This document shows positions 30,017 to 42,172 of a DNA stretch of 64,000 nucleotides, piece by piece; the first letter of the stretch is position 1; each line of letters starts with the position of its first letter. This DNA comes from Polaribacter sp. Q13 (GTDB taxonomy: Bacteria; Bacteroidota; Bacteroidia; Flavobacteriales; Flavobacteriaceae): the NCBI RefSeq assembly GCF_016858305.2, contig NZ_CP074436.1, positions 1,322,001 through 1,386,000 of the forward strand. The letters are read 5' to 3'. Below the pieces are notes generated by a model. The model was not told where the DNA came from and ran no database searches. It saw only the letters and a list, made by a program, of their open reading frames with translations. The translations under genes were made by a program, and so were the position numbers.

Positions 30017-30363
30017 CAAGTAAGGAAGAAAACTCCAAATTTTAAATATTTTGTCATTTCTTTAAATCTTAAATTTAGTACTAACATATTTGTATTTTAT
30101 TGGTTAATTATCAAACAAAGTTGTGACAGAATCCCTATTTTTTTTAATTAAAGCATACAAATTTTCGGCTTCAAATAAACGTAGCTCTATATTAATGAAT
30201 ATATTATACTTTTATCAACTTCATAATTATGAAAAAAGTATTATTTCAGGTTTTTGTTGATTTATTTTTAACGCAAACTTCAAATTTGTTTAAATTTAAT
30301 AAAACTTATAAAAAAGCGATACACTTTTGATAATACTTTTAAAAAAATATATACTTTAGCCAT
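30017..30363. other. Gene-free stretch upstream of the arginine cluster
   Basis: 347 AT-rich bases with no ORF above about 35 codons that looks real. Its 3' end holds the promoter of the arginine leader (30325-30359). No terminator for the gene before it is obvious. Confidence 0.5.
30325..30359 (+). promoter_or_regulatory. Candidate promoter of the arginine leader and operon
   Basis: TTTTG at 30325-30329 and TACTTTAG at 30352-30359 fit the Bacteroidetes -33/-7 pattern (TTG ... TAnnTTTG) with a 22-base spacer and one deviation in the -7 box. The expected start of transcription falls at or next to the leader ATG (30364), which would make the leader mRNA nearly leaderless. Confidence 0.5.
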
Positions 30364-30438
30364 ATGATTACTTCAAGAAGAAATAAATTATGTACAACAA
30401 TAAGTCCCAGCTTGCGCTTGCGCAACCGCCGTCGCTAA
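30364..30438 (+). CDS. Arginine-rich leader peptide (24 residues), probable attenuator
   Basis: An ATG-to-TAA ORF of 25 codons, too short for standard gene finding. It begins MITSRRNKL and ends LRLRNRRR, with seven Arg among 24 residues. Five of these lie in the last eight codons and are CGC/CGT, whereas neighbouring genes mainly use AGA. It lies 240 bases before the first gene of the arginine biosynthesis cluster, with candidate stem-loops between. By analogy with classical amino-acid attenuators, ribosome stalling at the Arg codons under arginine starvation would permit transcription of the operon. No homologue has been searched. Confidence 0.75.
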   Translation: MITSRRNKLCTTISPSLRLRNRRR

Positions 30439-30528
30439 TATTCTACTTCAGCAACAAGTTAACTTATTATAGTATTTATCCTTTTATTTTTTTTATCGTG
30501 AACAATTCTTACAAAACTTACTTACATC

Positions 30529-30588
30529 CTTACGTTATTTTTAACAATAACAATTTACGACGTAGTTTTTCTTTTCGCCCTTTTGGGG
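30529..30588 (+). promoter_or_regulatory. Candidate attenuator terminator/antiterminator region
   Basis: CTTACGT (30529-30535) can pair with ACGTAG (30560-30565, one bulge), followed by TTTTTCTTTT (30566-30575), a plausible weak terminator. CGACG at 30558-30562, in the 3' arm, is exactly complementary to CGTCG within the leader's Arg codons (30430-30434). Ribosome position on the leader could therefore change the fold. A small CCC-TTTT-GGG hairpin follows at 30578-30588. Confidence 0.45.
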
Positions 30589-30677
30589 TAATCAATTAAT
30601 TATAGAATTAAGGTGAGTCCGGTTCTACATTCAAGAAATACAAACAACAACTTTAACAACATAAAAAACACAATGCA

Positions 30678-31295
30678 ATGGAAATTGTAATTGCTAACAA
30701 ATCACATACTGTTTACGCAGATATTATTTGTAAAACAATAGAAGACGCTGCTCAAGTTAGAGGAACCGGTATCGCAAAAAGAAAACCAGAATACGTTGCC
30801 ACTAAAATGGAAAACGGAAATGCTGTTATAGCATTAGACAATGGTAAATTTGCAGGATTTTGCTACATAGAACAATGGGGACATGGTAAATTTGTTGCCA
30901 ACTCAGGTTTAATTGTACATCCAGATTATAGAAATATAGGGCTTGCAAAATCTATTAAACAAGTAATTTTTAAGCATTCTAGAACAAAGTTTCCAGATGC
31001 AAAAGTTTTTAGTATTACCACTGGTTTAGCGGTAATGAAACTAAATAGCGATTTAGGTTACAAACCCGTTACTTTCTCTGAATTAACGGACGACCAATCT
31101 TTTTGGGATGGTTGCCAAACGTGCAGAAATTACGATGTTTTAACAAGAACAGAAAGAAAAATGTGCTTGTGTACAGGAATGTTGTTTGACCCAAAAAACA
31201 ATAATAAAGAAGCCTCTCAAGAAGTTAAAGAAAGCGTTTTTCAAAAATTAAAGAATATTAAACAGAACTTGTTTCTAAAAAAAGATAAAAAATGA
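30678..31295 (+). CDS. GNAT acetyltransferase, probable N-acyl-L-glutamate synthase of the arginine operon
   Basis: A 205-residue GNAT protein and first gene of the arginine cluster. The acetyl-CoA loop region is VHPDYRNIGLAKSIK (81-95). An N-acylglutamate synthase is the one step otherwise missing here, as no argJ is present. The C-terminal part has C146xxC149 and C163xC165, a possible metal site unusual for GNATs. A basic tail (180-205) follows. The ATG at 30678 is preferred over ATG 30673, which reads only five codons. The stop overlaps the argG start by 4 bases. Acetyl versus succinyl donor is unknown. Confidence 0.75.
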   Translation: MEIVIANKSHTVYADIICKTIEDAAQVRGTGIAKRKPEYVATKMENGNAVIALDNGKFAGFCYIEQWGHGKFVANSGLIVHPDYRNIGLAKSIKQVIFKHSRTKFPDAKVFSITTGLAVMKLNSDLGYKPVTFSELTDDQSFWDGCQTCRNYDVLTRTERKMCLCTGMLFDPKNNNKEASQEVKESVFQKLKNIKQNLFLKKDKK

Positions 31296-32467
31296 AAAAA
31301 TTAGTAATTGCTTATAGTGGTGGTTTAGACACCTCTTACTGTGCCGTAAGTTTATCAAAAGAATATGATGTACATGCTGTAAGTGTAAACACTGGCGGAT
31401 TTACATCAGAAGAAATTAAACATATAGAAAGTAATGCCTATAAAATGGGAGTTTCTACTTATAAAAATATTGATGCTGTTTCTACTTTCTATAACAAAGT
31501 AGTAAAGTATTTAATTTTTGGAAACGTATTAAAAAACGCTACGTATCCACTTTCTGTAAGTGCAGAAAGAATTATTCAGGCAATTGAAATTGTAGAATAC
31601 GCAAAGAGTATTGGTGCAGAATATATTGCACACGGAAGTACTGGTGCAGGAAACGACCAAGTAAGGTTTGATATGATTTTTCAAACCTTGGCTCCTGGCA
31701 TCAAAATTATTACACCTATTAGAGACCAGAAATTAACGAGACAAGAAGAAATAGATTATTTAAAATCTGAAGGGATTGATATGCCTTGGGAAAAATCGAA
31801 GTATTCTGTAAACAAAGGTCTTTGGGGAACAAGTGTTGGTGGTGTTGAGACTTTAAAATCTGAATTGCCTTTACCTAGTGAAGCGTATCCTTCTCAATTA
31901 GAAAAAGAAGGTGAAGAAAAAGTTACCTTGACTTTTAAAAATGGTGAATTTGTTGCTTTAAACGGACAAGAAAATGCTCCTGAAGTGAATATCGAAAAAT
32001 TAAACGACATCGCTTCTGCGTATGCAATTGGTAGAGACATTCATGTTGGAGACACTATTGTTGGGACAAAAGGAAGAGTTGGTTTTGAAGCTGCAGCTGC
32101 TTTAATTACTGTAAAAGCACACCATTTGTTAGAAAAACACAACTTAACTAAATGGCAATTACAACACAAAGAGTATTTATCTAGTTTCTACGGAATGCAC
32201 TTACACGAAGGGCAATATTTAGATCCTGTAATGAGAGATACGGAAGCGTTTTTACAAAGTTCTCAAAAAATGGTTTCTGGTAACGTAGTAGTTTCTTTAA
32301 AACCGTATCATTTTTCTTTAGACGGAATTATTTCTGATCACGACTTAATGTCTAGTGCTTTTAGCACGTATGGTGAAGAAAACAAAGCGTGGACAGCTGA
32401 TGATGCAAAAGGATTTATTAAAATATTAGGAAATCAGAATAAAATATACAGACAAGTAAATAGTTAA
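31292..32467 (+). CDS. argG: Argininosuccinate synthase
   Basis: Joins citrulline and aspartate using ATP. The PP-loop AYSGGLDTSYCAV opens the protein, followed by EYIAHGSTGAGNDQVRF and ITPIRDQKLTRQEEIDYL, and GLWGTSVGGVETL. The length of 391 residues is close to the usual 395-405. It overlaps the GNAT gene by 4 bases, so the two are translationally coupled. A palindromic repeat lies between this gene and argC. Confidence 0.96.
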   Translation: MKKLVIAYSGGLDTSYCAVSLSKEYDVHAVSVNTGGFTSEEIKHIESNAYKMGVSTYKNIDAVSTFYNKVVKYLIFGNVLKNATYPLSVSAERIIQAIEIVEYAKSIGAEYIAHGSTGAGNDQVRFDMIFQTLAPGIKIITPIRDQKLTRQEEIDYLKSEGIDMPWEKSKYSVNKGLWGTSVGGVETLKSELPLPSEAYPSQLEKEGEEKVTLTFKNGEFVALNGQENAPEVNIEKLNDIASAYAIGRDIHVGDTIVGTKGRVGFEAAAALITVKAHHLLEKHNLTKWQLQHKEYLSSFYGMHLHEGQYLDPVMRDTEAFLQSSQKMVSGNVVVSLKPYHFSLDGIISDHDLMSSAFSTYGEENKAWTADDAKGFIKILGNQNKIYRQVNS

Positions 32468-32476
32468 TATCGACTC

Positions 32477-32552
32477 ATCCTGCAAGGTTTCAAAAACCTT
32501 GTAGGTATAAATTAAGAATACCTACAAGGTCAAAAAAAGACCTTGCAGGATA
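32477..32552. repeat. Nested palindromic repeat between argG and argC
   Basis: Outer arms ATCCTGCAAGGT / ACCTTGCAGGAT and inner arms ACCTTGTAGGTAT / ATACCTACAAGGT fold into a long hairpin. It is probably an interspersed repeat that could also act in mRNA processing or partial termination inside the operon. Confidence 0.75.
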
Positions 32553-32575
32553 TTTAGATAATAAATACCATCAAA

Positions 32576-33559
32576 ATGAAAAATTTAGAAGTAGGAATTA
32601 TAGGAGGAGCTGGTTATACAGCAGGTGAATTAATTAGATTATTATTAAATCACCCAAAAACAAATATCAATTTTGTTTACAGTACTTCTAATGCTGGTAA
32701 CAAATTATATAAAGTGCATCAAGATTTAATTGGTGATACGGATATCAGTTTTACAAGTGAAATAAATGCAAATGTTGATGTCTTATTTTTATGTTTAGGT
32801 CATGGAAACTCCACTTCTTTTTTACAAAAAAACAGCTTTTCTGATAACACAAAAATCATTGATTTAAGTAACGATTTTAGATTACTTGCTGATAAGAATT
32901 TCGAAGGAAAAGATTTTGTCTATGGTTTACCAGAACTAGATAAAGAAATTATAAAAACTGCGAATTACATCGCAAATCCAGGTTGTTTTGCTACTGCAAT
33001 ACAATTGGCAGTTTTACCTCTAGCCGCAAACGGATTGTTACAAAATGATATACATGTAAATGCTGTTACGGGTGCAACTGGTGCAGGAACATCTTTATCT
33101 GCAACCACACATTTTACATGGAGAGATAATAATTTTTCTCATTATAAAGCATTTAATCATCAGCATTTAGGAGAATACAACCAAACGGTAAATCAGTTAC
33201 AACCAAGTTTTAATTCTGAAATTAATTTTATGCCAAATCGTGGTGATTTTTCTAGAGGAATTTTTGCAACAACCTATACAAAGTTTGATGGGACTTTGGA
33301 AGAAGCAAAAGAAATGTATAAAGCGTATTATAAAGATGCTGTTTTTACTTTTGTTTCTGATGAAAGTATTTTTATGAAACAAGTAGTAAACACCAACAAA
33401 TGTTTGATACAACTAGAAAAACACGGTAATAAATTATTAATTACGAGTACTATTGATAATTTATTAAAAGGTGCTTCTGGTCAGGCAATTCAGAATTTGA
33501 ATTTAATGCATGGTTTTGAGGAAACACTAGGGTTAAAAATAAAAGCAAATTACTTTTAA
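32576..33559 (+). CDS. argC: N-acetyl(acyl)-gamma-glutamyl-phosphate reductase
   Basis: The NADPH-dependent reductase that makes N-acyl-glutamate semialdehyde. The Rossmann start GIIGGAGYTAGELIRLL, LSNDFRLL and catalytic Cys in IANPGCFATAIQLA are clear. HQHLGEYNQTV and VNAVTGATGAG follow the argC pattern. 327 residues, full length. Whether the acyl group is acetyl or succinyl cannot be told from the sequence. A 248-base gap to proC holds an interspersed repeat. Confidence 0.95.
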   Translation: MKNLEVGIIGGAGYTAGELIRLLLNHPKTNINFVYSTSNAGNKLYKVHQDLIGDTDISFTSEINANVDVLFLCLGHGNSTSFLQKNSFSDNTKIIDLSNDFRLLADKNFEGKDFVYGLPELDKEIIKTANYIANPGCFATAIQLAVLPLAANGLLQNDIHVNAVTGATGAGTSLSATTHFTWRDNNFSHYKAFNHQHLGEYNQTVNQLQPSFNSEINFMPNRGDFSRGIFATTYTKFDGTLEEAKEMYKAYYKDAVFTFVSDESIFMKQVVNTNKCLIQLEKHGNKLLITSTIDNLLKGASGQAIQNLNLMHGFEETLGLKIKANYF

Positions 33560-33644
33560 TCGTAGGGTGATAGCTAAGGATTTATTTCCAAAAAAATTTC
33601 TCTTAATTATAATATAAAATATGTTGTTGACTATTTACTAGCTT

Positions 33645-33795
33645 GCGTTAGCGATTGAAACGGCATCCTTTTTATGCTGAACTTGTTTCTGTATCTTTAG
33701 GTAAATTAAATTGATTTAAATAGAAAAAGCAGATGCTGAACTTAATTCAGCATAAAAAGATACAGTGTAAAGCGCGACCTTTAAGGAACGCCTAA
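33645..33795. repeat. Interspersed palindromic element, copy 2
   Basis: Starts with the 33-bp sequence shared with 18190-18222 (one mismatch) and closes with AGCATAAAAAGATACAG and AAGCGCGACC ... GGAACGCC, giving a partial palindrome of about 150 bp between argC and proC. Non-coding. Confidence 0.65.
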
Positions 33796-33807
33796 AAAAA
33801 AATATTT

Positions 33808-34599
33808 ATGAAAGTAGCTATAATTGGAGCAGGAAGTTTAGGACAATCTATCGCCAAAGGTTTATTAAAAAATAAGGTAGTTAGTTCTTTATACTTAACA
33901 AAAAGAAATACAAATTCTATTAAAGATTTTAACAACTTTAGTGAAGTAATTTTAACTTCTGATAACGAGGAAGCTATTAAAAATTCTGATATTTTAATTT
34001 TTGCAGTGCAACCAAGACATTTAGAAAATATCTTAAACAATTTAAAACCACTTCTAAAAGAAAATCATGTTTTAATTTCTGTAATTACAGGATTTTCTAT
34101 TGCAAAAATAGAAGCTATTGTTGGGGTTGATAAATTTATTATTCGCTCTATGCCAAATACTGCCGCTTCAGTTGGGCAATCGATGACCTGTCTTTCTCCG
34201 AATACAAAAGGGAAAGAAAAGGTAGAATTGGCTAAAACTATTTTTAATAGCTTAGGGCTTTCCATGGAAATTCCGGAAGAACAATTACAAGCAGCTACCG
34301 TTATTTGTGCAAGCGGAATTGCTTTTTGGATGCGCTTAATTAGAGCAACAACTCAAGGTGCTATTCAATTAGGCTTTGAAGCGGATGTAGCGCATGAATT
34401 AGCCATGCAAACTTGTTTTGGAGCAGCTACTTTACTGAAAGAATCTGGCAGACATCCAGAAGCAGAAATAGACAGAGTTACCACTCCTGGTGGTTGTACT
34501 ATAGAGGGATTAAACGAAATGGAACACCAAGGTTTAAGCTCTTCTTTAATTACAGGAATTAATAAATCTTTTGAGAAAATCAACCAAATAAAAAACTAA
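33808..34599 (+). CDS. proC: Pyrroline-5-carboxylate reductase
   Basis: The last proline step, reducing pyrroline-5-carboxylate. Visible: N-terminal Rossmann GAGSLGQSIAKGLL, ILIFAVQPRHLENIL, MPNTAASVGQSMTCLSPN and the C-terminal DRVTTPGGCTIEGLNEME substrate loop. 263 residues is typical. The stop is 5 bases before argD. Its place inside an arginine cluster links proline and arginine synthesis from glutamate. Confidence 0.94.
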   Translation: MKVAIIGAGSLGQSIAKGLLKNKVVSSLYLTKRNTNSIKDFNNFSEVILTSDNEEAIKNSDILIFAVQPRHLENILNNLKPLLKENHVLISVITGFSIAKIEAIVGVDKFIIRSMPNTAASVGQSMTCLSPNTKGKEKVELAKTIFNSLGLSMEIPEEQLQAATVICASGIAFWMRLIRATTQGAIQLGFEADVAHELAMQTCFGAATLLKESGRHPEAEIDRVTTPGGCTIEGLNEMEHQGLSSSLITGINKSFEKINQIKN

Positions 34600-34603
34600 T
34601 ATT

Positions 34604-35734
34604 ATGCCATTATTTAATGTTTACCCACTATACGATGTTACCCCTGTAAAAGCTAAGGGTGTTTATGTTTATGACGAAAACAAAACGGAATATTTAGATT
34701 TATATGGTGGGCATGCTGTAATTTCTATTGGGCATGCACATCCAAAATATGTAAAAGCAATCACAAATCAAGTTGAAAAATTAGGCTTTTATTCTAATGC
34801 TATTCAGAATCCTTTACAGGTTGAATTAGCTGATAAATTAGAAGCGCTTTCCGGTTGTAAAGATTACCAATTGTTTTTATGTAATTCTGGTGCAGAAGCC
34901 AATGAAAATGCTTTAAAAATAGCTTCTTTTAAAACCAATAAATCTAGAGTAATTGCCTTTAAAAATGGTTTTCATGGTAGAACTTCTGCTGCGGTTGCTG
35001 CCACCGATAATAAAAATATTATTGCACCGATTAATGCACAACAAAAAGTTACCTTTTTAAATTTAAACGATATTGAAGCTGTAAAAACAGAACTAGAAAA
35101 AGGTGATGTTTGTGCCGTTATTGTAGAGTTTATTCAAGGAGTTGGAGGTTTAGACCAAGCAACTGCTGCGTTTTTTGAACAAGTAGATGTTCTTTGTAAA
35201 GCTAACAATACCTTTTTTATTGCGGATGAAGTGCAGACTGGTTATGGTAGAACTGGTAAATTCTTTGCTTTTCAGCATTATAATGTAACTCCAGATGTTA
35301 TCTCTATTGCAAAAGGAATGGGAAATGGTTTTCCGATTGGTGGGATTTTAATTCACCCAAGCATTGAAGCAAAATTTGGAATGTTAGGCACTACTTTTGG
35401 AGGGAATCATTTGGCGTGTGCTGCTGGTTTATCTGTACTAAATGTTATTGAAGAACAAAACTTAATAGATAATGTAAACGAGATGTCTTGCTACTTTATA
35501 AAAATAGCTAAGACAATTCCGCAGATAAAAAATATTAAAGGAAAAGGTTTAATGCTTGGTTTAGAATTCGACTTTGAAGTTGGAGATTTACGCAAGAAAT
35601 TAATTTACGATTATCAAATTTTTACAGGAGGCGCAATGAATAAAAATTTATTGAGAATTTTACCTCCATTAACAATAAAGAAAGAGCATATCAATCAATT
35701 TTTTGAAGCTTTGGTTGATGCTTTAGGTGAATAA
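34604..35734 (+). CDS. argD: Acetyl(succinyl)ornithine aminotransferase
   Basis: A class III PLP aminotransferase of 376 residues. SGAEANENALKIASF, FHGRTSAAVAATDN, FFIADEVQTGYGRTG and the Schiff-base Lys in ISIAKGMGNGFPIGG are all present, with TTFGGNHLACAAGL after them. It transaminates N-acyl-glutamate semialdehyde with glutamate. The shortened N-terminus (MPLFNVYPLYDVTPVKAKGVYV) fits bacteroidete ArgD. It is 4 bases from proC. Confidence 0.93.
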   Translation: MPLFNVYPLYDVTPVKAKGVYVYDENKTEYLDLYGGHAVISIGHAHPKYVKAITNQVEKLGFYSNAIQNPLQVELADKLEALSGCKDYQLFLCNSGAEANENALKIASFKTNKSRVIAFKNGFHGRTSAAVAATDNKNIIAPINAQQKVTFLNLNDIEAVKTELEKGDVCAVIVEFIQGVGGLDQATAAFFEQVDVLCKANNTFFIADEVQTGYGRTGKFFAFQHYNVTPDVISIAKGMGNGFPIGGILIHPSIEAKFGMLGTTFGGNHLACAAGLSVLNVIEEQNLIDNVNEMSCYFIKIAKTIPQIKNIKGKGLMLGLEFDFEVGDLRKKLIYDYQIFTGGAMNKNLLRILPPLTIKKEHINQFFEALVDALGE

Positions 35735-35744
35735 AAAATTAAAT

Positions 35745-35800
35745 GCAAAGGACGCAAAGTTTTTCGCAGAGTTCGCAAAGTTTTTCTAAAAACTGCAACT
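35745..35800. repeat. CGCAAAG interspersed repeat between argD and proA
   Basis: GGACGCAAAGTTTTTCGCAGAGTTCGCAAAG fragments, same family as 25440-25580 and 58480-58570. Confidence 0.55.
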
Positions 35801-35822
35801 GTAAACTGAATACTATAAGAAT

Positions 35823-37019
35823 ATGAATACGTTATTATCAATTGAAACTAGAAACGCTGTTTTACTAACAATGGCCGAACTGCTAGAGCAAGAAAGAGCA
35901 GCAATTATCCGCATTAATAAAACAGATTTAGAGGCTTATAAAGGAGATGACATTTCTATGTTCGATCGTTTAAAAGCAGATGACACTAAAGTTGATGAAA
36001 TGATTGCTGCGGCTAAACATTTGGCTTCTCAAGAAGATCCTGTGGGTGTAGAACGTTTTAGTTTTAAGCATGATAACGGAATGCAAGTGTATAATAAAAC
36101 GGCTTCTTTTGGAACCATTCTTATTATTTATGAATCGAGACCAGATGTTACCGTTGAAGCTGCAGGAATTGCGTTTAAATCTGGAAATAAAATATTATTA
36201 AAAGGTGGAAAAGAATCGTTAAATTCTAACTTAAAAATTGTAGCCTTATGGCACGAGGCTTTAAAAAAGCACAATGCTGCTACAGATTGGGTAGAATATT
36301 TACAATTCAATAGGACAGAAACACAGGCTTTTTTAGAGAAACCAACGCAAAAGGTAGATTTAATTGTACCTCGTGGTGGAGAACGTTTAATTGCTTTTGT
36401 AAAAAATCATGCTACTTGCCCCGTTATAATTAGCGGACGAGGAAACAACTTTGTGTACGTAGAAAAAGAAGCCGATTTAGATATTGCTGTTGATGTAATT
36501 ATCAACGGAAAATCTAAAATCTCTGCTTGTAACGCCGTTGACAAAGTGTTAATTGATAAAAACCTTCCGAATAAAGAAGTATTTATCAATAAATTGATTT
36601 CAAAATTAAATGAAGCAAAAATTCAGGTTTTGGGTGATGCAGCTGTAGCTAAAAGCCATAATTTAGAGCAGATTTCATCAAACGAAGTTTGGTATGAAGA
36701 GTTTTTAGATTATAAAATTGTGATTGGTGAAATTGCTTCAAATTCTGATGCTATTGCCATGATAAATAAATATGCTGGCGGACATTCATCTGCTATTATT
36801 ACAAAGGATATTCAGAAAGCAAAAATATTTATGGAAAACGTAGATACCGCTGTTGTATATCATAACGCTTCCACTCGTTTTACAGATGGTGGTCAATTAG
36901 GTTTGGGTGGCGAATTAGCAATTAGCACAGACAAATTGCACCAACGCGGACCAATCGGTTTGCAACACTTGGTAACCAATAAATGGTACGTTCATGGAAA
37001 TGGACAAGTACGAAATTAA
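35823..37019 (+). CDS. proA: Gamma-glutamyl phosphate reductase
   Basis: The second proline step, making glutamate-5-semialdehyde. It belongs to the aldehyde dehydrogenase superfamily: YESRPDVTVEAAGIAFKSGNKILLKGGKE, VPRGGERLI, the catalytic Cys in KSKISACNAVDKVLI and HSSAIIT. A C-terminal FTDGGQLGLGGELAISTDKLHQRGPIGL block confirms the family. 398 residues, close to the usual 410-420. It precedes proB, the reverse of the common proBA order. Confidence 0.95.
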   Translation: MNTLLSIETRNAVLLTMAELLEQERAAIIRINKTDLEAYKGDDISMFDRLKADDTKVDEMIAAAKHLASQEDPVGVERFSFKHDNGMQVYNKTASFGTILIIYESRPDVTVEAAGIAFKSGNKILLKGGKESLNSNLKIVALWHEALKKHNAATDWVEYLQFNRTETQAFLEKPTQKVDLIVPRGGERLIAFVKNHATCPVIISGRGNNFVYVEKEADLDIAVDVIINGKSKISACNAVDKVLIDKNLPNKEVFINKLISKLNEAKIQVLGDAAVAKSHNLEQISSNEVWYEEFLDYKIVIGEIASNSDAIAMINKYAGGHSSAIITKDIQKAKIFMENVDTAVVYHNASTRFTDGGQLGLGGELAISTDKLHQRGPIGLQHLVTNKWYVHGNGQVRN

Positions 37020-37122
37020 CAGTTTTACTGTGCCGATTGGTGGTAAAAACTTTAACCATTTACAACTTATCAAGAAAAAAATAAATAGAAAAATTAAGAA
37101 GTAAAACTCGTAATTAAACACA

Positions 37123-37887
37123 ATGCAAAAAAAGAAACGCATTTTACTAAAAATAGGTTCTAACACCCTTACAAAAGAAACCGATAATATTTCGAGAGGA
37201 AAAATTGAAGATCTTGCAAATCAAATTGCAAAACTACAAGATACCTGCGAGTTTATTATTGTTAGTTCTGGAGCAATTGCGGTAGCTAAACAGTTTGTGA
37301 AATTAGAAGGTAAACACGAAGAAGTTTTTGTAAAACAAGCTTTGGCTTCTATTGGTCAGCCACATTTAATTAGAATTTATCAAGAAATATTTAGAGAATA
37401 TGGTTTATTGAGTTCTCAATGCCTGCTCTCCTACTCTGATTTTGAAAAACAAGACAGTAAAGTAAATATTGTAAATACTATAAATGTATTGATTCATAAT
37501 AATTACATTCCTATTATTAATGAAAATGATACTGTTGCCACTGATGAAATAAAATTTGGTGACAATGATAAATTGGCGGCTTTAACTGCTACTTTATTAA
37601 ATGTAGATTTGTTGATTATTGCCACAAACACCAACGGAATTTACACCAAAGAGTCTTTTAAAAATAATGCTCCAGAAACTATTTTAGAAGTTGATAATTT
37701 TGAAGAGTTACTAAAAGAAGTGGTGAGCACAAAATCTACTCACGGAAGTGGTGGAATGGGTTCTAAAATTGAAGCAGCCGCACTTGCAAAAAATGCAAAC
37801 ATAGAAACATGGATTGTAAACGGTTTGGAAGATAATTTTATTACCAATGCTTTTGAAAATAAAATTCCGTTTACAAAAATAAAATAA
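37123..37887 (+). CDS. proB: Glutamate 5-kinase, short form without PUA domain
   Basis: The first proline step, phosphorylating glutamate. It is an amino-acid kinase fold with KIGSNTLTKE, SSGAIAVAKQ, LIHNNYIPIINENDTVATDEIKFGDNDKLAALTA and THGSGGMGSKIEAAALAKN. It ends at 254 residues, so the C-terminal PUA domain of E. coli-type ProB (about 367 residues) is absent, as in some other lineages. Feedback inhibition by proline, which depends on the kinase domain, may remain. It is 46 bases before argF'. Confidence 0.93.
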   Translation: MQKKKRILLKIGSNTLTKETDNISRGKIEDLANQIAKLQDTCEFIIVSSGAIAVAKQFVKLEGKHEEVFVKQALASIGQPHLIRIYQEIFREYGLLSSQCLLSYSDFEKQDSKVNIVNTINVLIHNNYIPIINENDTVATDEIKFGDNDKLAALTATLLNVDLLIIATNTNGIYTKESFKNNAPETILEVDNFEELLKEVVSTKSTHGSGGMGSKIEAAALAKNANIETWIVNGLEDNFITNAFENKIPFTKIK

Positions 37888-37932
37888 CACCACACAATAC
37901 AAGGGATTTAAACCTTTTGCAAAAAAAACACA

Positions 37933-38871
37933 ATGAAAAATTACACCTCCATAAACGACATAGAACATATTGACAATTGGATTCAAGAAGCCAAAGAATT
38001 GAAAAGAAAACCATTAAATAACAATCATTTAGGAAAAAATAAAACCTTAGGATTGTTGTTTTTCAATTCTAGCTTACGTACGCGTTTAAGTACACAAAAA
38101 GCTGCTTTAAATTTAGGTATGGATCCTATTGTAATGAATGTAACCGGAGATGCTTGGGGAATAGAGTTTGAAGATGGAACTGTAATGAACGGTACCACTG
38201 CAGAACATATAAAAGAAGGTGCTGCTGTAATTTCTCAATATTGTGATATTATTGCTGTAAGAGCTTTTCCTACATTAACAGACAAGGAAAAAGACGAATC
38301 TGAAGAGGTTTTAAAATCTTTTGTAAAATTTGCTTCCGTACCAATTGTAAGTATGGAAAGTGCAACGGGTCATCCGTTACAAGCATTAACAGATGCAATT
38401 ACTATTTCTGAAAATACGACTAAAAAAAGACCAAAAGTAGTACTAAGTTGGGCGCCACATATTAAAGCTTTACCACATGCTGTAGCCAATAGTTTTACTC
38501 AAGCGATGCAGAAAATGGATGTTGAATTTGTAATTGCAAATCCGGAAGGTTATAATTTAAACCCAGAAATAACCAAGGATACTCCTGTTTATCACAACCA
38601 AGAAGAAGCTTTTAAAGATGCTGATTTTGTGTACACCAAAAATTGGAGTTCTTATGACGATTATGGACAAATATTAAAAACCGATTTGGATTGGATGATT
38701 ACCAAAGATAAAATTGGTGCTGCAAAATTTATGCACTGTTTACCCGTTAGAAGAAATGTGGTAGTTGATGATGCCGTTTTAGATTCTGATAGTTCTTTGG
38801 TTATTGAACAAGCAAATAATAGAACGTATGCTGCTCAGTTGGTGTTGAAAAAAATATTAGAAAACAACTAA
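37933..38871 (+). CDS. argF': N-acyl-ornithine transcarbamylase (acetyl- or succinyl-)
   Basis: Carbamoylates N-acylated ornithine instead of free ornithine. The carbamoyl-phosphate loop is SLRTRLSTQKA, followed by SATGHPLQALTDAI and FMHCLPVRRNV, whose VRRN part is typical of the acyl-ornithine group. In this family one loop position before EHI sets specificity: Pro90 in the B. fragilis succinyl enzyme and Glu92 in the Xanthomonas acetyl enzyme (from memory). Here residue 90 is Ala (NGTTA90EHIKE), matching neither. 312 residues, full length. It is followed by a palindromic repeat before argB. Confidence 0.9.
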   Translation: MKNYTSINDIEHIDNWIQEAKELKRKPLNNNHLGKNKTLGLLFFNSSLRTRLSTQKAALNLGMDPIVMNVTGDAWGIEFEDGTVMNGTTAEHIKEGAAVISQYCDIIAVRAFPTLTDKEKDESEEVLKSFVKFASVPIVSMESATGHPLQALTDAITISENTTKKRPKVVLSWAPHIKALPHAVANSFTQAMQKMDVEFVIANPEGYNLNPEITKDTPVYHNQEEAFKDADFVYTKNWSSYDDYGQILKTDLDWMITKDKIGAAKFMHCLPVRRNVVVDDAVLDSDSSLVIEQANNRTYAAQLVLKKILENN

Positions 38872-38943
38872 AGTCATTGCGAGGCACGAAGCAATCTGTT
38901 ATTTGATTAATAGATTGCTTCGTCATTCTTCCTCGCAATGACT
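38872..38943. repeat. Palindromic repeat between argF' and argB
   Basis: AGTCATTGCGAGG / CCTCGCAATGACT outer arms with inner CGAAGCAATCT / AGATTGCTTCG. An intact copy of the hairpin whose decayed relatives appear at 2099-2464. Confidence 0.8.
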
Positions 38944-38957
38944 GAAACTTAATAAAA

Positions 38958-39734
38958 ATGGAAAAACTATCAATCATAAAAATTGGAGGAAACATTATAG
39001 AAGATGAAACTTCATTAAATGCTTTTCTAAAATTATTTTCTAATTTAGAAGGAAAGAAAATACTTGTTCACGGAGGTGGAAGACGCGCTACTCATATTGC
39101 CTCTAAATTAGGTATAGAATCTAAAATGGTGAATGGTAGACGTATTACAGATGCCGAAACTTTAGAAGTTATTACCATGGTTTATGGCGGCTTGGTAAAC
39201 AAAAATGTGGTGGCTAAACTACAAGCTTTACAGGTAGATGCTATTGGTTTAACTGGTGCGGACATCAACAGTATAAAATCAGAAAAAAGACCGGTAAAAG
39301 AAGTCGATTTTGGTTTTGTAGGTGATGTAAAAAAAATAGCTTCACATTCTATTGATAAATTAATAAAAGCAGATTTTACACCAATTTTTTGTGCTATTAC
39401 GCATGATGGAAATGGACAATTATTAAACACCAATGCAGATACAATAGCAAGTACCATTGCAGTTGGAATGAGTGAAATCTATGAAACATCAATTTATTAT
39501 TGTTTTGAATTAAATGGAGTTTTAAAAGATTTTAACGATAAAAATTCTGTTATAAAAAGCATCAATACAAATTCTTATAAAGAGTTATTAGATGCTAAAA
39601 TTATTACTGACGGAATGATTCCTAAATTAGACAATTGTTTTGATGCTTTAAATAATGGAGTAACAAGAGTTAATATTGGTAATACTTCTATGTTGACAAA
39701 AGAAAACAATAATTTTACAACAATTACATTATAA
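38958..39734 (+). CDS. argB: Acetylglutamate kinase
   Basis: Phosphorylates N-acyl-glutamate. The amino-acid kinase motifs KIGGNIIEDE, LVHGGGRRATHIASKLG, NGRRITDAETLEV and GADINSIKS are present, as is LLNTNADTIASTIAVG near the end. 258 residues, lacking the N-terminal helix that marks arginine-inhibited hexameric ArgB, so feedback inhibition is less likely (inference). The stop overlaps the argE start (TAATG). Confidence 0.93.
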   Translation: MEKLSIIKIGGNIIEDETSLNAFLKLFSNLEGKKILVHGGGRRATHIASKLGIESKMVNGRRITDAETLEVITMVYGGLVNKNVVAKLQALQVDAIGLTGADINSIKSEKRPVKEVDFGFVGDVKKIASHSIDKLIKADFTPIFCAITHDGNGQLLNTNADTIASTIAVGMSEIYETSIYYCFELNGVLKDFNDKNSVIKSINTNSYKELLDAKIITDGMIPKLDNCFDALNNGVTRVNIGNTSMLTKENNNFTTITL

Positions 39735-40804
39735 TGATGAGTATTGAAAAATTAACAGAAAAAGCAATCTCTCTTTTAAAAAATCTGATTGAAACCCAAT
39801 CATTTTCTAGAGAAGAAGACAAGACAGCAAAATTGATTGAAGGATGGTTTATAGAAGAAAACATTCCGTATATAAGAACAAAAAATAACGTTTGGGCAAC
39901 CAACAAATATTTTGATGATAGCAAACCAACTTTATTGTTAAATTCTCATCATGATACGGTGCATCCAAATACAGCCTATACAAACGATCCGTTTAAAGCT
40001 ATAGTAGAAGATGGAAAATTATATGGTTTAGGATCTAATGACGCCGGTGGATGTTTGGTGTCTTTAATGGCAACCTTTACCAATTTTTATGCACAAGAAA
40101 ACCTAAAATATAATTTGGTTATTGTAGCTTCTGCAGAAGAAGAAGATTCTGGTCCGGATGGGTTAAATAGCATGTTAAAAATAATTCCGCATATAGATGT
40201 GGCTATTGTTGGAGAACCTACATTAATGAATTTAGCCGTTGCAGAAAAAGGTTTGGTTGTTTTTGATGCTGATGTAGCAGGAACTCCAAGTCATGCGGCA
40301 CATCCAAATGATAACAATTCAATATACAATACCATTGAAGTTTTACAATGGTTTAAAGATTTTAAATTTAAAAAAACTTCAGAAGCTTTAGGTGATGTAA
40401 AAATGACGGTAACTCAAATTTCTGCTGGTTCTCAGCACAATGTTGTACCTGCACATACCAATTTAGTAATTGATGTACGAGTAAACGACGCATATTCTAA
40501 TCAAGAAATTGCAGATATTTTACAAGAAAAATCACCTTGTACCACAATTACTCCTAGAGGTTTAAAACTAAATTCCTCTTCTATTTCTATAGATCACGAT
40601 TTAGTAAAAGCTGGAATTGCCATGGGCAGAGAAACATATGGTTCTCCTACAATATCAGATCAAGCTTGTTTAAGTTGCGAATCTCTAAAATTAGGCCCTG
40701 GTGATAGTACTCGTTCTCATTCTGCAAATGAATTTATATATTTGGCAGAAATTGAAGAGGGAATTCAAATTTATGTAGAATTATTAAAACGTGTAATTGT
40801 TTAA
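39734..40804 (+). CDS. argE: M20 family N-acyl-citrulline / ornithine deacylase
   Basis: A 356-residue zinc-dependent M20 hydrolase. The metal and catalytic blocks are LLNSHHDTVHPNT, GLGSNDAGGCLVSLMA, ASAEEEDSGPDGLNSML and VAIVGEPT. In pathways using acyl-ornithine transcarbamylase the substrate is N-acyl-citrulline. The first ATG overlaps the argB stop; a second ATG three bases later is equally possible. Acetyl versus succinyl specificity is open. Confidence 0.9.
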   Translation: MMSIEKLTEKAISLLKNLIETQSFSREEDKTAKLIEGWFIEENIPYIRTKNNVWATNKYFDDSKPTLLLNSHHDTVHPNTAYTNDPFKAIVEDGKLYGLGSNDAGGCLVSLMATFTNFYAQENLKYNLVIVASAEEEDSGPDGLNSMLKIIPHIDVAIVGEPTLMNLAVAEKGLVVFDADVAGTPSHAAHPNDNNSIYNTIEVLQWFKDFKFKKTSEALGDVKMTVTQISAGSQHNVVPAHTNLVIDVRVNDAYSNQEIADILQEKSPCTTITPRGLKLNSSSISIDHDLVKAGIAMGRETYGSPTISDQACLSCESLKLGPGDSTRSHSANEFIYLAEIEEGIQIYVELLKRVIV

Positions 40805-40897
40805 TCGTTAAATTGTTTAATTGGCAACAGGTCAAAACAATAACACGCTTTCTCATTTACACAAATAAACAATTACAAGATTAAACATTAGAAAAAT

Positions 40898-42172
40898 ATG
40901 AAACTTTGGGATAAAGGATTTTCAATAGATCAACAAATAGAAAAATTTACAGTAGGTAACGATAGAGAAATTGACATGCATATTGCAAAATATGATGTTC
41001 AAGCTTCTTTAGCGCACGCAATAATGCTAGAATCTATTGGCATTATAACTGCCGATGAATTGAAAGATTTAAAAAGAGGATTGCAAGAATTAGCAGACGA
41101 TATTGAAAAAGGAACCTTTGTAATAGAAGAATCTTTTGAAGATGTACACTCTAAAATTGAATGGGAACTTACTAATAAATTAGGTGAAGTTGGTAAAAAA
41201 ATTCATACAGCTCGTTCTAGAAACGACCAAGTTTTAGTTGCTTTGCAATTGTATTATAAAGAAAATTTAGCTATTATAAATGATAAAACTAAAACGTTAT
41301 TTGATACCCTTTTAGGTTTAGCTGAAACACATAAAGAAAGCTTATTACCAGGGTATACGCATTTACAAGTTGCCATGCCATCATCTTTCGGATTGTGGTT
41401 TTCTGCGTATGCAGAATTATTAATTGACGATGTTTATATGTTAAATGCGGTATCTAGAGTTGTAGACCAAAATCCTTTAGGCTCTGCTGCTGGTTATGGT
41501 TCTTCTTTTCCTATTGACAGAGAATTAACGACCAAAGAATTAGAATTTGCAACCATGAAATACAACGTAGTGGCTGCACAATTAAGTAGAGGAAAAAGTG
41601 AACGTTCTATTGCTTCAGCCTTAGGCGGATTGTGTAACACCATGTCTCGTTTTGCTATGGACGTTTGTTTGTATATGAGTCAAAATTTTAGTTTCATCAC
41701 TTTTCCTGATGAATTAACAACCGGAAGTAGCATTATGCCACACAAGAAAAATCCAGATGTTTTTGAGTTGATTCGTGGAAAATGTAATAAAATTCAGGCG
41801 CTACATACAGAAATGGTAATGATTACAAATAATTTACCAACGGGTTATCACAGAGATTTTCAATTATTAAAAGAAAACATCATCAATGCTTTTGAGGATG
41901 TAAAAGATATTTTAGACATCTTTAACTACTCTATTCAACAAGTAATTGTAAAAGACATTGATTTAAATGATGAAAAATATCAGTATTTATTTACGGTAGA
42001 TAGCATCAATAATCTAGTAGTTGAAGGTATGTCTTTTAGAGAAGCCTATCAAAAAATTGGCGGACAAGTTCAAGCAGGAACTTACAAACCAGATTTAGGA
42101 AAACAACATACGCATGTTGGAAGTATTCATAATTTGAGTTTAGATAAGATTCGTGAGAAATATCCGAAGTAA
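40898..42172 (+). CDS. argH: Argininosuccinate lyase
   Basis: The last arginine step, releasing arginine and fumarate. The fumarase-superfamily signature GSSIMPHKKNPDVFELIRGK, the TARSRNDQV segment, and SFPIDREL are intact. 424 residues is slightly shorter than the common 460. It ends the cluster and is followed by a bidirectional terminator. Confidence 0.96.
   Translation: MKLWDKGFSIDQQIEKFTVGNDREIDMHIAKYDVQASLAHAIMLESIGIITADELKDLKRGLQELADDIEKGTFVIEESFEDVHSKIEWELTNKLGEVGKKIHTARSRNDQVLVALQLYYKENLAIINDKTKTLFDTLLGLAETHKESLLPGYTHLQVAMPSSFGLWFSAYAELLIDDVYMLNAVSRVVDQNPLGSAAGYGSSFPIDRELTTKELEFATMKYNVVAAQLSRGKSERSIASALGGLCNTMSRFAMDVCLYMSQNFSFITFPDELTTGSSIMPHKKNPDVFELIRGKCNKIQALHTEMVMITNNLPTGYHRDFQLLKENIINAFEDVKDILDIFNYSIQQVIVKDIDLNDEKYQYLFTVDSINNLVVEGMSFREAYQKIGGQVQAGTYKPDLGKQHTHVGSIHNLSLDKIREKYPK

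Follow-up and report, generated by a model that had tools for sequence, protein, structure and literature searches.

The arginine/proline operon of Polaribacter sp. Q13 is preceded by a leader with two short Arg leader frames in series, and the best explanation of this leader, judged from its sequence and that of its relatives, is that it probably serves the operon as a translation-based arginine sensor. That the two frames are Arg-responsive regulators of the operon appears very likely. The device would work like leader-peptide attenuation, and the terminator type known from trp and his is not supported in this family. The window, i.e., the whole stretch of 64,000 nucleotides analysed, comprises positions 1322001-1386000 of a single-contig genome of 4.42 Mb. 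The first-pass annotation had described the first Arg frame and missed the second one, the hairpin H3, the pairing between ORF1 and the start of ORF2, and the absence of ArgR.

Table 1. Features of the leader and the operon, in window positions.
Feature	Positions	Strand	Description and basis
Promoter	30325..30363	+	TTTTG 30325-30329 and -7-like box TACTTTAG 30352-30359; box spacing, TTTTG by position alone
ORF1	30364..30438	+	leader peptide MITSRRNKLCTTISPSLRLRNRRR*, probably leaderless; conserved Arg-rich ORF, Arg run 30415-30435
P1 5' arm	30367..30405	+	5' half of ORF1, predicted partner 30461-30502; duplex energies against swaps and shuffles
P2	30412..30425	+	small hairpin TTGCGC-TT-GCGCAA within the Arg codons; RNAalifold, 3 of 4 clade alignments
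P1 3' arm	30461..30502	+	T-rich stretch and ORF2 start; duplex energies, ensemble pairing
ORF2	30498..30599	+	second leader peptide VNNSYKTYLHPYVIFNNNNLRRSFSFRPFGVIN*, GTG start; open-frame test, CGA, CGT, CGC near end
H1	30534..30551	+	hairpin GTTATT...AATAAC within ORF2, conserved in part; 2 of 4 clade alignments predict it
H2	30576..30590	+	short hairpin CGCCC-TTTT-GGGG at Arg/Pro codons near the ORF2 end; CGCCC position
H3	30604..30626	+	bulged hairpin; motif AGG[TC]GNG[CT]CC, both-sided changes
GNAT-like acetyltransferase	30678..31295	+	first operon gene; no NCBIfam match
Rest of operon	31292..42172	+	argG through argH-like gene; profile matches, last gene by recall

The operon and its two leader frames

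The first gene of the operon, which we take to be a GNAT-like acetyltransferase, is followed by argG, argC, proC, argD, proA, proB, a gene for N-acetylornithine carbamoyltransferase, argB, a gene of the ArgE/DapE family and, at 40898-42172, a gene that is presumably argH-like. Curated cut-offs are passed by argC, proC, proA, proB, the carbamoyltransferase and argB; the names argG, argD and ArgE/DapE family are best matches with scores under these cut-offs. By its gene content, the operon combines arginine and proline synthesis.

Of 189 loci coding for the GNAT protein, we used the best 80 for comparison; they come from Polaribacter, Lacinutrix, Olleya, Psychroserpens, Winogradskyella, Tenacibaculum and other genera. 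Together with the window they make up 81 rows, 76 of which (the window included) enter the statistics on ORF1.

ORF1 had been annotated as a frame of 24 codons with seven Arg codons, five of them CGC/CGT among the last eight, at a distance of 240 bases from the operon. This description holds: the Arg codons are AGA, AGA, CGC, CGC, CGC, CGT and CGC, and 239 bases separate the frame from the GNAT start. It had also been proposed to look for the frame in related species, and there a short ORF ending in Arg codons is indeed kept. An ORF1 with at least three Arg occurs in 75 of the 80 related loci as well as in the window. Its length is 20-24 codons and its Arg content 22.6%; of 390 Arg, 287 fall within the last seven positions. 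Outside Arg the peptides differ widely among relatives, and the Arg positions themselves exchange synonymous codons (CGC, CGT, CGA and some AGA). Pro is present in 71 of the 76 peptides. A count of ORF1 frames was dropped as circular, the rows having been chosen as ORFs, and replaced by a stricter pattern test that does not presuppose the frame: an ORF with ATG start and a length of 18-28 codons, of whose last eight at least three encode Arg, located 190-400 nt before GNAT. This pattern is found in 67 of 81 rows, and 5 of the 14 rows missing it have no ORF1; it is found in none of 20 shuffles and not at all on the opposite strand. Within the last 12 codons of ORF1, CGN exceeds AGR by 280 to 56, compared with 121 to 455 in the GNAT genes of the 80 loci, a bias that may partly be due to the GC needs of P2. 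By these comparisons, the Arg-rich leader ORF1 is real and conserved.

Most likely, ORF1 also begins the mRNA. Of the promoter-like -33/-7 pair that had been proposed, the -7 part stands: the -7-like 8-mer TACTTTAG lies 4 nt before the ATG. The pair as such does not gain from a plain sigma-70 scan, which reports it at 30327-30355 but returns 5 sites for the region where shuffles give 6.0 and is thus at chance level when taken alone. The best match to TAnnTTTG before the ATG of ORF1 lies at a gap of 4 in 71 rows and of 5 in the remaining 5, and 75 of the 76 nearest 8-mers score at least 5 of 6 matches. Gap 4 combined with at least 5 of 6 matches is seen in 70 rows and at 28 of 1620 random positions, a control scored without the tie-break applied to the rows. 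The available part of PMC9723704 has the -7 box span -12 to -5 and gives the share of leaderless mRNAs as 5.5%. Since the box sits so near the ATG, ORF1 is predicted to start at +1 or +2. By this spacing the transcript probably begins at or within 1-2 nt of the ATG, which would make ORF1 leaderless.

The second frame, ORF2, is recognised by its freedom from stops. In the frame of the CGCCC motif, the 54 bases upstream contain a stop in 0 of 81 rows, while the other two frames are closed in 78 and 65 rows. The nearest possible start is GTG in 33, ATG in 27 and TTG in 21 rows. Many rows end in RRxFxxRRP* or similar, and Polaribacter-like rows often in RPLGV*. Five loci (L023, L031, L039, L042 and L050) lack ORF1, yet ORF2 and H3 are kept. 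In these, a -7-like box precedes the ORF2 start by 4 nt (L031) or by 16-19 nt (the other four), and the T-rich arm is absent between box and ORF2. As ORF2 and the part downstream persist without ORF1, the core of the leader looks like ORF2 plus what comes after it, with ORF1 as an extra stage.

RNA structures in the leader

The 5' half of ORF1 is predicted to pair with the start region of ORF2 (P1). The duplex of each row's own arms reaches -11.65 on average and that of swapped arms -8.55; 0 of 2000 permutations were as good, where the swaps ignore kinship, and the own partner ranks within the best 18% on average. Against shuffled sequences the mean z values are -2.44 and -2.58, with negative values in 75 of 76 rows. 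In ensemble predictions, the ORF2 start region pairs with ORF1 at a mean of 0.59, compared with 0.07 in shuffled leaders. The predicted P1 thus has, with controls, the hallmark of start-site sequestration, an upstream ORF that pairs with the next translation start. Compensatory changes in the small hairpin P2 were judged by eye.

Towards the operon, H2 and H3 follow each other closely: the distance from CGCCC, used as anchor in the search, to H3 is 31-36 nt in every one of the 81 rows. H3 has a six-pair stem AGAATT/GGTTCT and, past a bulge, two GG/CC pairs topped by a loop that reads TGAGT in the window and TGNGT generally. Its motif is present in 79 of 81 rows. We aligned 87 distinct sequences out of 94 matches from 95 sources (L075 remained unmatched), an alignment that leans towards the given structure. 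In it, five of the six outer pairs of H3 show changes on both sides, and the pairs of H2 are nearly invariant with none supporting covariation. In a pair test on 80 of the 81 rows, 5.86 of the 6 outer pairs of H3 form, compared with 5.37 after swapping and 5.46 when the 3' side is slid by one and the bulge refitted. Taken together, H2 and H3 pair in 98.8% of cells against 93.3% in shuffles, which retain relatedness, and 14-64% in slid controls; 0 of 500 shuffles reach any of five measures, figures that include the near-invariant H2.

Twenty-seven rows, hand-picked for their one-base bulge, served as seed of R1, a covariance model of H2-H3. The model matches the window at 30573-30629 with 44.7 bits and 37 of 296 genomes of the order at E <= 0.1. 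The 22 matches at E <= 5e-4 all lie directly before GNAT and all in the window's family; other genomes of this family, mostly of a genus labelled g2, gave no match. Weak matches (E >= 0.009) were discarded, GNAT being beside none of the ten such loci inspected (L085, L086 and L108-L115). In the window's own genome, G000, two further matches (E 4.9 and 6.0) look like chance. The H3 motif AGGTGNGTCC occurs twice there; the second copy runs antisense in a gene that is presumably HflX-like and has no partner stem by eye.

Several other pairings were considered. A mutual information scan between ORF2 and H3 gave no convincing pair beyond H3 and no structure exclusive with P1. An exchange CGCC:GGUG between H2 and H3 has both sides nearly invariant, so that covariation is uninformative; L067, with GGCG, gives the sole hint. 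The GNAT start codon falls inside a small predicted hairpin (30671-30693) in most of the 27 rows printed. A hairpin over this start was rejected as unspecific, with -4.51 for own, -5.15 for swapped and -2.80 for letter-shuffled sequences.

Distribution in the class and the place of ArgR

In the best-studied bacteria, arginine synthesis is controlled by the ArgR protein. The ArgR profile PF01316 matched in 0 of 39 genomes, i.e., the window's own and 38 relatives, with a positive Bacteroides control. Throughout the class, 21 of 396 genomes match, 18 of them strongly (E < 1e-17); among the three weak matches are G450 and G039, a member of the window's family with a borderline score of 27.3 bits in a frame of 312 codons.

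The GNAT gene is present in 144 of the 396 class genomes. All 20 residues were compared for enrichment at the ends of short ORFs upstream, over their last 12 codons, counting any such ORF and using 20 shuffles each. Arg stands out with z 35.6 in the 81 rows and 11.3 in 60 class loci of a first pass (three of them ArgR-positive); Pro comes second with 10.4 and 5.9, and all others stay at or below 3.2. Proline may be sensed alongside Arg, and the Pro enrichment may in part be fixed by H2.

The larger class test covered 97 ArgR-negative and 14 ArgR-positive genomes of the 144 with GNAT, most of which stand in the upper part of the list. Despite its weak PF01316 match below cut-off (E 5.5e-4), L167 (G450) was counted among the 97. 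Of the 97 ArgR-negative loci, 59 have an ORF in which three or more of the last 12 codons encode Arg, where shuffles lead one to expect 6.8; the other 38 fall short of three Arg. Endings of these class leaders include SRRRVFIPRV*, RRPILPRA* and RPVFYIRR*.

Fourteen of the 18 genomes with a strong ArgR match carry GNAT, and argR is located directly upstream in all 14 (L206-L219). The match lies inside an ORF of 141-189 codons and ends 31-142 nt before the GNAT match. One of these 14 contains, in the 345 bases that precede GNAT, a short ORF with three Arg, where shuffles give 3.4, this space being mostly argR itself; the comparison with 59 of 97 (Fisher p 0.0002) ignores kinship and does not represent an independent absence. 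Upstream of argR, 3 of 14 have an ORF with three Arg, none leader-like by eye. In front of the operon, some genomes thus carry argR at the position where many others have an Arg leader. A large group that appears to lack ArgR would offer a natural comparison between a protein repressor and a ribosome-read leader doing the same job.

Terminator-like sites were found in 11 of 60 other class loci against 1.2 in shuffles, which is not seen in the window's family. A laxer scan, run without shuffle control, locates such sites within the leader ORF at 8 of 59 class loci. Other families of the class may use a different attenuation layout. At L166, L167, L170, L174, L188, L190, L200 and L202, the leader ORF itself contains a hairpin with a T run, in most cases upstream of the Arg codons.

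Genus g2, which we guess to be Flavobacterium, has a different short leader with few Arg, e.g., MNNNNLNITPISRTNRPSTSPEVRMLLV*. Five of its six clear leaders have one Arg in the last 12 codons and the sixth has two. The leaders of this genus (L145-L150) share the end TSPEVR, and in L146-L148 a hairpin lies inside the leader, with a compensating change in L147 by eye.

Proposed mechanism, alternatives and known systems

When charged Arg-tRNA is ample, ribosomes would leave ORF1 fast, P1 would re-form and ORF2 would be poorly translated; the leader transcript would then be lost before the genes, by Rho-dependent termination or decay. When Arg-tRNA is scarce, a ribosome would stall on the Arg run of ORF1, and a second one queuing over the P1 arm would free ORF2. 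The ribosome on ORF2 would stall in turn at the Arg/Pro end of its own frame, by H2, and H3 could fold, with expression of the operon as a result. A Rho gene is present in the genome. Because there is no conserved terminator, the output would lie with Rho, decay or translation, as the available part of PMC6386406 describes it for Salmonella speF. The order in which ORF1 gates ORF2 is, in the proposed form, possible rather than probable. The sign of this gate could be reversed, since the 5' arm of P1 stays free during a stall at the Arg codons unless a second ribosome queues. The role given to H2 and H3 is unlikely to be right in its detail. Rather doubtful, too, is the widest version: a two-stage relay in which a leaderless first peptide, via queued ribosomes, unlocks an Arg/Pro second peptide that controls H3, the all-RNA device having replaced, or having been replaced by, an ArgR gene at the same place within one class.

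The first-pass annotation had favoured a classical attenuator, in which an Arg-starved ribosome on ORF1 would prevent an intrinsic terminator at about 30530-30575. An Arg ORF does precede an Arg operon here, and as in the trp/his type it carries a codon run for the amino acid under control, its translation being presumed from sequence; moreover, a run of at least four T stands just before CGCCC in 61 of 81 rows. What this model needs in addition is a terminator, and none was found in the leader. The stem proposed between CTTACGT and ACGTAG with its T run is not borne out: the region holds 0 terminator-like sites, a comparable stem with T run occurs in 4 of 81 rows, and terminator-like sites in 3 of 81 against 1.3 in shuffles. 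Nor does the Arg tail coevolve with the 3' part. The complement of CGTCG and CGACG, to which attention had been drawn, is present either way round in 27 of 76 rows, with -9.76 for own and -9.59 for swapped partners (233 of 1000 swaps as good), and the complete leader of the window does not fold better than its shuffled versions (z 0.28). We consider the classical attenuator very unlikely in this family. Slightly better placed, although still quite unlikely, is an arrest peptide, chiefly ORF2, that senses free arginine through nascent-chain contacts and acts at high arginine, as exemplified by the fungal arginine attenuator peptide and TnaC. The ends of ORF2 (the RRxFxxRRP* and RPLGV* types) are more alike than codon sensing requires, and common endings, among them SRRRVFIPRV and RRPILPRA, recur in several leaders of the class; on the other hand, ORF1 peptides vary widely except for Arg, and the H2 hairpin may fix part of the ORF2 ending.

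H3, together with H2, might instead bind a ligand or protein, with the ORFs merely tuning leader translation. The conserved loop motif and the stem with changes on both sides would suit such an RNA, as would the lack of an Rfam match at gathering score. The H3 motif is, however, found at 0 of 60 class loci, many of which have Arg leader ORFs, which marks the Arg ORF as the wider feature; we hold a binding RNA to be very unlikely as well. Small ORFs arise easily, and the leader frames could be due to chance or encode a small protein with a function other than regulation, but the frame test of ORF2, the absence of the ORF1 pattern from shuffles, the constraint centred on Arg, the strict promoter spacing and the recurrence in the class make this highly improbable here. 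An antibiotic-sensing leader of the erm/RLR type is scarcely conceivable: RLR, a motif mentioned for antibiotic leader peptides in the available part of PMC8632094, occurs in 30 of 76 ORF1 rows including the window, but 46 rows are without it and the downstream genes are biosynthetic.

The preferred reading, a translation-based arginine sensor, has several known counterparts. The attenuators of trp, his and leu place a short ORF with codons for the end product of the pathway before a biosynthetic operon, and so does the present leader; it differs by having two ORFs in series and no conserved terminator. Tandem leader peptides of the ermA type, likened here by layout, share two serial leader ORFs and start sites hidden in stems, but they sense antibiotics. 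Bacteroid-trp is a cis element of trp genes. The available part of PMC2864571 lists it for Bacteroidetes (RF01692); the present leader differs from it and, in a search of Rfam, has no match at gathering score.

That Arg codons in leaders sense arginine is already known from speF orf34 and rbfL, as far as the accessible text of the two sources goes. In Salmonella, a short ORF with consecutive Arg codons senses arginine; when this ORF is translated, Rho is counteracted and an RNA that masks the following ribosome-binding site is opened, and no Rho-independent terminator was found according to the accessible text (PMC6386406). The likeness is one of layout: speF has one ORF before a polyamine gene, whereas here two ORFs, the first probably leaderless, precede an Arg/Pro operon. 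In Staphylococcus aureus rbfL, Arg codons of the leader likewise sense arginine limitation and affect the next start site, but the peptide of eight residues overlaps the next RBS, limitation lowers expression, and the target is a biofilm factor (PMC13009471, accessible part). It had been remarked that attenuation by an Arg leader was not known to be described in this phylum. This stands in so far as the part of PMC9723704 at hand names no Arg leader, tandem ORFs or H3; it does not extend to attenuation as such, since the same text presents strong clues of leader-peptide attenuation before amino-acid operons in Flavobacterium psychrophilum, a flavobacterium as well. For B. thetaiotaomicron, sORFs reminiscent of leader peptides are mentioned (PMC7366714, in part). 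PMC2965389 contains 0 occurrences of arginine and Bacteroidetes terms. Among the matches listed in searches of the open-licence PMC literature there was no Arg leader for an arginine operon in the phylum, which does not prove its absence from print.

If read correctly, the system has a leaderless leader peptide as the central part of a switch and adds a new family of hairpins whose loop is strongly conserved. It would also yield specific rules, open to testing, for how genes are controlled in a phylum where little RNA regulation is known. Two minor elements lie within the operon. The gap that separates the carbamoyltransferase gene from argB, together with its surroundings (38801-38995), contains a minus-strand ORF for a peptide SLRGRMTKQS...CFVPRND, which may resemble a dispersed bacterial repeat. 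The Flavo-1 RNA (RF01705), to which PMC9723704 assigns no clear function, is the sole Rfam match in the window and is located at 33636-33783, between argC and proC, with 56.3 bits.
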